From the NCBI RefSeq assembly GCF_036894955.1, contig NZ_CP145905.1:2870501-2934500 (forward strand): DNA of 64,000 nucleotides, read 5' to 3'. The position numbers and the translations under genes are program-made. This stretch comes from Paenibacillus sp. KS-LC4. GTDB lineage: Bacteria; Bacillota; Bacilli; Paenibacillales; Paenibacillaceae. This document shows, one piece after another, positions 37,189 to 39,753 of this stretch; the stretch's first letter is position 1, and every line of letters starts with the position of its first letter. The notes beneath the pieces were generated by a model that was not told the origin of the DNA, did not search any database, and saw nothing but the letters and a program-made list of their open reading frames with translations.

Positions 37189-37240
37189 TTGACAGTGATA
37201 GTTGCCTGGATTATAATTGCCTAAGTCAACTATGTGAGTT
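37189..37240 (+). promoter_or_regulatory. Consensus sigma-A promoter with inverted repeat
   Basis: TTGACA (37189-37194), exactly 17 bases, TATAAT (37212-37217): a perfect consensus. AACT-ATGTG-AGTT (37228-37240) sits where transcription starts and may be the operator of a repressor such as a MarR-type protein. A consensus promoter in front of an exporter gene usually implies repression. Confidence 0.8.
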
Positions 37241-37263
37241 ATGCATCAATGAGGGGGAACAGC

Positions 37264-38499
37264 ATGCTGTCTCAAGAACAACGCCCGCGCTTATGGACTA
37301 CTGCATTTATTACACTAACCATTTGCTCTTTTCTAGTTTTCTTTAATTTGCAGCTTTTGCTTTCACCGCTTACGGCTTATACGAAAAGCACATTTATGGC
37401 CAGTGACGTATCGGTCAGCCTCGTGACGAGCGTGTTTGCCGTTTCTGCGATTTTAACGCGTTTTATGACGGCATTTGTGATGAAAAGAATGCCACGATTG
37501 GCCATTTTGTACATCGGCATTGTGCTTGCTGCCCTTTTTACCGCTATGTATATCGCGGCTGAATCCTTAGGCTCCTTGCTCATCATGCGTGTATTTTATG
37601 GCATTGGCTTTGGCATAGCCAGTACGATTATTCCGACGCTCGTATCGCAAATTATTCCCGCTAGGCGCATTGGGGAAGGGATTGGCTATTTTGGCTTGTC
37701 CACCAGCCTTGCGATGTCCATTGGCCCCATGATCGGGCTAAATATTTGGAAGCAATTCGGTTTTGAGGCGTTAACCATCACGGGAACGGCAGCTATTTTG
37801 CTCGTTATCCCGATGCTTCTCGGGTTTCGTCCTCTTCCGCCAGAGCCTCCGCGCCAGAGCCGGGAGGAGCGAAAACGGGCTGCCTCAAGCAAGCCTCCCT
37901 TTAATTTCCAGCTTGTGCTTCCCGCGCTATTAACTGTGCTGCTGTCGATTACATACAGCGGGATATTAAGCTTTATCGCCTTGTATGGTGAGAAAATTGC
38001 GATCAACCAGATCGGCTTGTTTTTCTTGTTTAATGCGGTGACAATCATTAGCGTTCGTCCAATTTCTGGAAAATTGTTTGACAGCAAAGGCCATGCGGCC
38101 GTGCTTATTCCTGGTGCGTTATGTGTTATCGCAAGCTTGACGGTGCTGTCGTTTACGACCTCCATTTCGCTGCTGATCATATCGGCGCTGCTATATGGTC
38201 TAGGATTCGGCGCTGTCCAGCCAACGATTCAAGCTTGGATGCTGCGCAGCTCAAGTCCGGAGCAGCATGGAGCTGTGAATAGCATGTTCTATAACGCAAC
38301 GGATCTTGGTGTTGCGACAGGAGCTATTTTATTAGGTGCCATTGCCTCAGCGACGAGCTATGAAATGATGTATCGCTGCGCTGCTGGCATCATGATTATC
38401 TTTTTACTCGTATATTTGGTTCTTAGCATAACGATGGCTGCAAAACATAAAAAGCGGCGCTGGAGCAGGCCGGGAGCGGTTTCGCAAAAATTTCAATGA
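37264..38499 (+). CDS. MFS transporter, 12-TM
   Basis: A 411-residue major facilitator. The first helix reads FITLTICSFLVFFNLQLLLSPL. SVFAVSAILTRFMTAFVMKRMPR is the motif-A-like loop, and RVFYGIGFGIASTIIPTL is the fourth helix. A basic loop (REERKRAASSK) separates the halves. The short Arg-rich C-terminus is cytoplasmic. It resembles small-molecule/drug exporters of the YttB/YwoG type; the substrate is unknown. GAGGGGG precedes the ATG at 37264, so the frame from 37234 is too long. Confidence 0.88.
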   Translation: MLSQEQRPRLWTTAFITLTICSFLVFFNLQLLLSPLTAYTKSTFMASDVSVSLVTSVFAVSAILTRFMTAFVMKRMPRLAILYIGIVLAALFTAMYIAAESLGSLLIMRVFYGIGFGIASTIIPTLVSQIIPARRIGEGIGYFGLSTSLAMSIGPMIGLNIWKQFGFEALTITGTAAILLVIPMLLGFRPLPPEPPRQSREERKRAASSKPPFNFQLVLPALLTVLLSITYSGILSFIALYGEKIAINQIGLFFLFNAVTIISVRPISGKLFDSKGHAAVLIPGALCVIASLTVLSFTTSISLLIISALLYGLGFGAVQPTIQAWMLRSSSPEQHGAVNSMFYNATDLGVATGAILLGAIASATSYEMMYRCAAGIMIIFLLVYLVLSITMAAKHKKRRWSRPGAVSQKFQ

Positions 38500-38506
38500 G
38501 AAACAA

Positions 38507-38535
38507 TTGACATCAACTTACTTGTCATGTAAGAT
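38507..38535 (+). promoter_or_regulatory. Sigma-A promoter of the riboswitch-EamA unit
   Basis: TTGACA (38507-38512), 17 bases, TAAGAT (38530-38535). The predicted transcript starts near 38542 and carries a leader of about 240 bases before the EamA start codon. Confidence 0.75.
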
Positions 38536-38590
38536 GTAAAATGAATTACGATCTAACATCAGATGACAGCAAGGCATCAAACCATATATT

Positions 38591-38688
38591 ACTTTTCGTA
38601 TAACCTCGTAAGCCGTATTCAGCTGCAGCTGGATATAAGAACAGGTCGGGGGTATCTACAGGAAGCCTTTACTTCCTAACTACGATAA
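38591..38688 (+). ncRNA. Purine-riboswitch-like aptamer with enlarged P2 arm
   Basis: P1: TTTTCGTA (38593-38600) pairs with TACGATAA (38681-38688), 7 of 8. J1/2 reads TAA. P2: CCTCG (38604-38608) pairs with CGGGG (38647-38651). J2/3: TATCTAC (38653-38659) is exactly the UNUCUAC of purine riboswitches. P3: AGGAAG-CCTTTA-CTTCCT (38660-38677). J3/1: AAC, with C at the position that is C in guanine and U in adenine riboswitches. Unusual points: P2 is extended by a further hairpin (TATTCAGC-TGCA-GCTGGATA), and the L2/L3 kissing-loop sequences are not canonical. Ligand identity is therefore open. Confidence 0.6.
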
Positions 38689-38733
38689 CAAGGATCAAGC
38701 TGTATTGGTCGTTGCTATGTGGTTAGGTTTTTT
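38675..38733 (+). terminator. Regulated terminator of the EamA leader
   Basis: CCTAACTACGATAACAA (38675-38691) pairs with TTGCTATGTGGTTAGG (38712-38727), with one bulge and one mismatch, followed by six T. The 5' strand includes the 3' strand of P1, J3/1 and part of P3, so the folded aptamer and the terminator exclude each other. This predicts that ligand binding turns transcription on. Confidence 0.78.
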
Positions 38734-38784
38734 GTGTTGTCTGGGCAAGCTTAGAGAGACAATCAAGGAGGTCTAAGGGTATAA

Positions 38785-39753
38785 ATGAAGTATTTATTAT
38801 CGGTTTTATTCGGTGCGATTAGTTACGGTGTGTTGTCTACAATCGTGGTACTGGCCTATGGTCAAGGCTATCAATTAGGTGAAGTGGTTGGTGCGCAGCT
38901 GCTGACGGGATTTATTTTGGCCTGGATGCTGGCTTTTTATACAAAACAGCGGGAGCAGCGCAAAGCCCGTACGGCTCCAAACGCAGTTTCTTCTGTCACT
39001 CAAGCGGCCGATGCCGCCAAAGCGCTTGCCGCTAAGCTGACGTGGAAAAGCAGAGCGCTGCTCATGCTTGCGGGTATGCCGACAGCAATAACAGGCTTGT
39101 TGTATTATCATTCGCTCCGTTATATTCCAGCCTCGCTGGCGATTATTTTATTGTTTCAGTTCACCTGGATCAGCGTTTTGATTCAAGCATTCAGCAAGCG
39201 TCAACGTCCTAAAGGCGTTATGCTGCTGGCATTGATTGTTTTGTTTGGAGGCACGCTGCTTGCTGCCGGCATTATGGAGGAAGGCGTTGCCCAGTTCAAC
39301 TGGATCGGCATCATTTTCGGCTTATTGTCCGCCGTAAGCTACTCCTTGTTTATTTTGTTCAGCGGCAAAGCGGTGCCAGCTGTACATCCGGCTTTTCGCA
39401 GCGCTTGGATGATTACTGGCGGGTTGCTGCTCGTGTTTATTTTATTCCCGCCGCTGTTTCTATTTAATGGTTTGATTTGGGGACAATTGCTCGTATTCGG
39501 CATCCTGCTAGGGCTGTTCGGCGCTTTTATCCCGCCTGTCCTGTTCGCAATCGGCGTGCCGCATATTGGTGAAGGCATGGCTGGCGTATTAGGCGCTGCT
39601 GAACTTCCTGTAGCTGTCACGATGTCGGCCCTTATATTGAATGAGCATGTGAGCATGCTGCAATGGGTGGGTGTCGTTGTCGTGCTAATGGGCATATTGC
39701 TGCCAGAGCTGAAACGCTTTAAAGGGCGTTCACAGCGGACAATGGCTGCTTAG
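38785..39753 (+). CDS. EamA/DMT-superfamily transporter
   Basis: A 322-residue membrane protein with about ten hydrophobic segments arranged as two EamA repeats. The first repeat includes LYYHSLRYIPASLAIILLFQ, the usual end-of-repeat motif, and the second ends LPVAVTMSALILNEHVSMLQW. An unusual polar insert of about 45 residues (KQREQRKARTAP onwards) follows the second helix. Family members export amino acids, nucleobases or other metabolites. The upstream purine-riboswitch-like ON switch suggests a purine-related or toxic-metabolite export role (inference). CAAGGAGG precedes the ATG. Confidence 0.87.
   Translation: MKYLLSVLFGAISYGVLSTIVVLAYGQGYQLGEVVGAQLLTGFILAWMLAFYTKQREQRKARTAPNAVSSVTQAADAAKALAAKLTWKSRALLMLAGMPTAITGLLYYHSLRYIPASLAIILLFQFTWISVLIQAFSKRQRPKGVMLLALIVLFGGTLLAAGIMEEGVAQFNWIGIIFGLLSAVSYSLFILFSGKAVPAVHPAFRSAWMITGGLLLVFILFPPLFLFNGLIWGQLLVFGILLGLFGAFIPPVLFAIGVPHIGEGMAGVLGAAELPVAVTMSALILNEHVSMLQWVGVVVVLMGILLPELKRFKGRSQRTMAA

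Follow-up and report, generated by a model that had tools for sequence, protein, structure and literature searches.

The adenine riboswitch of pbuE in Bacillus subtilis is an ON switch that controls an efflux gene through a terminator overlapping the aptamer. Guanine-I riboswitches (RF00167; the xpt/pbuG/purE type), which are usually OFF switches, are built around a three-way junction with a J1-2 segment UAA, a J2-3 segment UNUCUAC, a cytosine at position 74 (C74) and GG/CC kissing loops. Purine riboswitches that combine C74 with ON logic have already been published from Paenibacillus as guanine-II, which is linked to phosphoribosyltransferase (PRT) genes, and xanthine-II, as described in the main text of Hamal Dhakal et al. 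2022 (PMC9295807). EamA-annotated transporters are controlled by the orphan riboswitch ykkC subtype 2d (PMC7266159), whose RNA architecture is unrelated. Here, we analyze a 64-kb stretch of DNA from Paenibacillus sp. KS-LC4 (64,000 nucleotides; hereafter the window) and describe a purine-class element in the leader of a gene for an EamA/DMT-family transporter. Across Paenibacillus and its relatives, such an altered guanine-family switch appears to turn on an exporter when a guanine-like purine builds up. Our literature search, which ran outside subscription papers, figures and supplements, where an earlier listing is possible, found no description joining a purine riboswitch to EamA; the papers that name EamA alongside a riboswitch deal with other subjects, and the main text of PMC9295807 mentions neither EamA nor transporters.

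A purine aptamer and terminator ahead of the EamA gene

The only Rfam match in the window is to RF00167 (Purine) at 38576–38702 (37.7 bits; gathering cut-off, 37), with the aptamer core at 38595–38686. At the sequence level, this confirms a purine-class riboswitch aptamer upstream of the EamA gene, as the original prediction, made from the letters alone, had placed it; the guanine-type C, the EamA gene downstream and the overlap of the terminator with P1 and P3 that it had proposed hold as well. From 5′ to 3′, the parts are a sigma-A type promoter, the purine aptamer, the intrinsic terminator, a ribosome-binding site and the EamA start codon:

38507–38535, forward strand: sigma-A type promoter, TTGACA - 17 - TAAGAT (consensus scan, 10/12 matches)
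38595–38600, forward strand: P1 5′ strand, UUCGUA, pairing with 38681–38686
38601–38603, forward strand: J1-2, UAA, with the U22 equivalent at 38601; invariant in 42 genus leaders
38604–38651, forward strand: P2 arm, CCUCG (38604–38608) pairing with CGGGG (38647–38651); compensatory changes among orthologs
38616–38635, forward strand: extra hairpin in L2, UAUUCAGC-UGCA-GCUGGAUA; four close genomes only
38643–38645, forward strand: L2 kissing motif AGG, whose GG pairs with the CC of L3; invariant in genus leaders
38652–38660, forward strand: J2-3, GUAUCUACA, with the U51 equivalent at 38657 (leader alignment and folding)
38661–38676, forward strand: P3, GGAAG/CUUCC, with the six-base L3 CCUUUA at 38666–38671 (leader alignment and folding)
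38677–38680, forward strand: J3-1, UAAC, with the C74 equivalent (specificity C) at 38680; one nucleotide longer than in guanine-I
38681–38686, forward strand: P1 3′ strand, pairing with 38595–38600
38675–38733, forward strand: intrinsic terminator, stem 38675–38727 and T tract (T6) 38728–38733 (−23.8 kcal/mol, z −5.15)
38766–38771, forward strand: ribosome-binding site, AGGAGG (from sequence)
38785–38787, forward strand: EamA start codon, start of gene 38785–39753
38785–39753, forward strand: EamA/DMT-family transporter gene, 322 aa; PF00892 (EamA) matches the protein in two stretches (64.2 bits against a gathering score of 28.2)

The 5′ arm of the terminator, from 38675 onward, consists of the 3′ halves of P3, J3-1 and P1, so that terminator and aptamer are mutually exclusive. 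This arrangement is kept in orthologs: among the named loci, 63 had a clear T run, and an automatic test recovered the overlap at 61 of them, the two failures being early T-run artefacts, and 11 further loci have TTTATTT in place of a T5 run, after a conserved GUUAGG arm. Because the terminator is built from these aptamer strands, ligand binding should turn the EamA gene ON. In unconstrained minimum free energy (MFE) folds of the growing RNA, the three-way junction is predicted until 38720, and the terminator has replaced it at 38727; the full RNA folds at −44.6 kcal/mol against −36.8 kcal/mol with the aptamer enforced, a difference of 7.8 kcal/mol in favor of the terminator, although the programs ignore the ligand and the kissing loops and hence lend support to ON logic rather than proof. 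Ligand and tertiary contacts, or kinetic action, would have to make up the gap. The ON logic put forward by the original prediction thus finds support in the terminator overlap and the folding, but not as a novelty: ON logic by itself is not new, given the C74 ON switches described in the text of PMC9295807.

Conservation of the leader and the J3-1 expansion

The aptamer lies just upstream of the gene in all 30 of the best EamA orthologs of the genus and in 12 of the 14 of the next set, and about 770 nt upstream in the G021 ortholog (locus L150), so that in total 43 of 44 genus orthologs are preceded by the riboswitch; the lone exception is a second EamA copy in G012 (L077, 54% identity). Ahead of six EamA paralogs of the genus (37–48% identity), the riboswitch was not found. 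A covariance model, R1, built from 42 orthologous leaders finds the element at 74 of 75 named Paenibacillus/Cohnella EamA loci, with a 38% identical homolog as the exception. Across the order, the R1 scores form two groups (≥71.8 bits and ≤64.3 bits), and all nine of the high-scoring loci that we retrieved from other families lie upstream of EamA orthologs (59–71% identity); these scans covered sampled genomes and the best-listed matches, and give a lower bound on the spread. The genes neighboring EamA vary between species, which indicates that riboswitch and transporter travel as one unit.

Covariation supports the three-way junction of P1, P2 and P3. In the genus alignment, 98.7% of cells pair, a value that falls to 42–56% when the partners are slid by 1–3 columns, and P2 displays compensatory U-A/C-G and A-U/G-C changes. 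The named loci contribute a further P2 change, C-G/U-A, and, in P3, single A-U replacements; compensatory changes in P3 are rare, and P1 is nearly invariant. Among the named loci, both partners vary in ten pairs, where shuffling gave 3.1 and none of 500 shuffles reached that number; the count leans upward, since the alignment, which was made to fit the structure, also holds one xanthine-II row. The comparison of orthologous leaders, for which a lack of covariation had been named in advance as the contrary outcome, brought out compensatory stem changes.

The U22, U51 and C74 equivalents are retained, and the pocket residues, including the C at 38680, are invariant in the genus, which keeps J1-2 UAA, J2-3 G-U-N-U-C-U-A-C-N, C74 and the GG/CC kissing pairs; however, J2-3 is shorter in L068, L071, L074 and L075, and L066 has GUCACUAC. 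The kissing loops had been called non-canonical, which proves mostly wrong, as all 39 distinct genus leaders carry the two canonical G-C pairs between L2 GG and L3 CC unchanged; L2 ends in CGGA, with the GG still there, in four relatives (L111, L116, L119 and L120). The enlarged P2 arm held up in part: the extra hairpin is real, is predicted in the MFE fold and has one U-G pair replaced by C-G in L007, but it is no hallmark of the class, as it is confined to four close genomes and the length of L2 in relatives varies between 6 and 36 nt.

What distinguishes the group lies in J3-1, where the original prediction read "AAC" and left the visible extra nucleotide unremarked. As a measure, we used the asymmetry of the P3 arm, i.e., the nucleotides from the L3 end to C74 minus those from position 54 to the L3 start, which is unaffected by how the basal P3 pair is drawn. 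Its value is 3 in all 127 parsed EamA-linked elements (32 distinct arms), whose J3-1 reads UAAC, UUGC and similar; four more skipped by the script fit the same value by eye. The pbuG elements have a value of 2, as do most of those at purine-biosynthesis genes and most of those at FAD-oxidoreductase genes; two PRT-linked elements reach 5, and one element with U51G reaches 4. By these sequences, one extra J3-1 nucleotide is what sets the EamA-linked group apart from guanine-I: it shares the U22/U51/C74 pattern of that class and lacks its two-base J3-1 (asymmetry 2). In addition, it is predicted to be ON, precedes the gene of a putative EamA exporter, has an L3 of mostly 6 rather than 7 nt (six here, one shorter than in most guanine-I elements) and a usually long and variable L2. 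The value of 3 is not exclusive to EamA, as L247 and L248 ahead of an FAD oxidoreductase share it; loss of base pair 54-72 was also rejected as a diagnostic, since these genera have further purine riboswitches that vary there too. The source genome itself carries three purine riboswitches, each with a different J3-1 length, the other two being a guanine-I-like element ahead of the purE region (L001) and a PRT-linked element (L002).

Guanine-II and xanthine-II carry larger insertions than the EamA-linked group, as judged from the PRT-linked and U51G elements; our assignment of these elements to the two classes follows the text description in PMC9295807. Xanthine-II resembles the EamA-linked elements in its ON logic, its presence in Paenibacillus and its J3-1 insertion, but has U51G and a two-base J2-3 insertion, whereas the EamA-linked elements keep the U (38657) and UCUAC throughout. 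One element near an EamA locus (L118, 5431–5504, reverse strand) fits this xanthine-II description, with U51G, a two-base J2-3 insertion and J3-1 CCAGGC. The adenine riboswitch of pbuE differs in having U74 and an MFS pump in place of the invariant C74 and the EamA/DMT protein.

Ligand, transporter and rival explanations

We propose, with a probability of roughly 0.8, that this purine-class riboswitch is a transcriptional ON switch for the EamA exporter, with a guanine-like oxopurine as its ligand and purine relief as its role. When the ligand is absent, the nascent RNA would refold, the 3′ halves of P3, J3-1 and P1 would form the terminator, and transcription would stop before the gene. A guanine-like oxopurine in the three-way junction would form a Watson-Crick pair with C74 and contact the U51 and U22 equivalents, and would thereby hold P1 and P3 such that the terminator could not form and the transporter would be made, which would then remove the purine or a related compound. 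The combination of C74, U51 and U22 predicts pairing to a guanine-type oxopurine, and guanine or a close oxopurine is our best guess for the ligand. Induction of an exporter by such a purine would point to a purine-relief pump, which fits the analogy with pbuE. Several points weigh against this proposal. The extra J3-1 base adjoins the ligand-pairing C, and specificity might differ from guanine; the Rfam score is barely over the cut-off, with relatives at 35 to 54.6 bits and some orthologs below it; EamA proteins transport many different substrates; and no solved structure resembles the EamA protein by sequence, which leaves no substrate clue from that side. Among the species compared, no purine genes are conserved beside EamA as a clue to the ligand, and a look for other leader RNAs at more distant EamA homologs gave no Rfam match in ten.

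The strongest alternative is that the J3-1 insertion changed the specificity, such that another purine (e.g., hypoxanthine, xanthine, a methylated or oxidized guanine, a nucleoside or a purine-like antimetabolite) is sensed and the same compound exported. The universality of the extra nucleotide in the group (127/127) and the presence of an exporter, an atypical gene for guanine riboswitches, make this a credible, if lesser, possibility. In the published text, selectivity changes go along with insertions in J3-1 and J2-3 for xanthine-II and guanine-II, and the cases went both ways, as guanine-II keeps guanine despite its larger insertions and xanthine-II does not (PMC9295807); the U22, U51 and C74 equivalents, moreover, are kept here as in guanine-I and guanine-II, which argues against a changed specificity. 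A further ligand class on the guanine scaffold, defined by the one-base J3-1 expansion, a non-guanine purine and a dedicated DMT-family exporter throughout Paenibacillales, can be advanced only tentatively. It is rather unlikely that the EamA protein is an importer, or an exporter of some unrelated compound (e.g., an amino acid), with the purine as a mere metabolic signal: EamA proteins are mostly known as amino-acid exporters, and guanine has been proposed to switch ON the PRT genes, as genes of uptake or salvage, but a purine usually switches uptake genes OFF, and an inducible transporter of the EamA family fits efflux better.

Membership of the published guanine-II group, with EamA as an unlisted gene, is improbable. 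The group shares with guanine-II its occurrence in Paenibacillus, the predicted ON logic, U51 and C74, and an extra base before P3, the J2-3 GUUUCUACN resembling the single-base insertion that the text of PMC9295807 describes; the PRT-linked elements, however, have the six-base J3-1 CCAGGC (asymmetry 5) against four bases of the UAAC type (asymmetry 3), and we rejected the assignment on this length. Most improbable is a decayed, non-functional riboswitch, despite the low Rfam score and the unusual L2 of the source-genome clade, since the binding pocket has kept its residues and aptamer and terminator are conserved together throughout the order. The purine-relief switch that we favor would connect purine overload with efflux by a pump in Paenibacillaceae and would provide a substrate lead for the EamA family, which is large with few known substrates. 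Since variants of the guanine scaffold have repeatedly proved to sense new purines, a variant conserved across the order is directly testable; that the group lies partly under the Rfam cut-off may explain why it had not been singled out.

Promoter, neighboring genes and other purine elements

A promoter of the TTGAC(A)-17-TA type is present in 105 of 116 orthologous leaders. Its spacer (window 38517–38531) is conserved and, in most EamA promoters of Paenibacillus, forms an imperfect palindrome, TTACYTGNCATGTAA, as if bound by a repressor too; one subgroup (e.g., L031–L033) has a different spacer. Upstream, an MFS transporter gene (37234–38499), weakly similar to metallophore exporters, stops 8 bases ahead of the promoter. 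The source genome is close to P. algorifonticola, with a 95% identical EamA protein. The next frame after EamA in this genome, which lies outside the conserved unit, is an open frame (40363–63999) that runs off the window end and codes for 7879 aa or more, of which the first 1500 comprise nonribosomal peptide synthetase domains (condensation, AMP-binding and carrier); an apparent gene-free stretch after 39760 was an artefact of listing closed frames and is really this one giant frame.

Purine riboswitch-like elements also occur ahead of a gene for an FAD-dependent oxidoreductase (L195, L196, L199–L201, L206 and L247–L249), with J3-1 often GGC/AGC, which is another unusual gene for the class. 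Others precede amidohydrolase genes (L198, L205, L208, L210 and L214), of which that of L198 scores as a 5′-deoxyadenosine deaminase; the elements of L205 and L210 have a P3-arm asymmetry of 1, and several variants may be mixed in this set.
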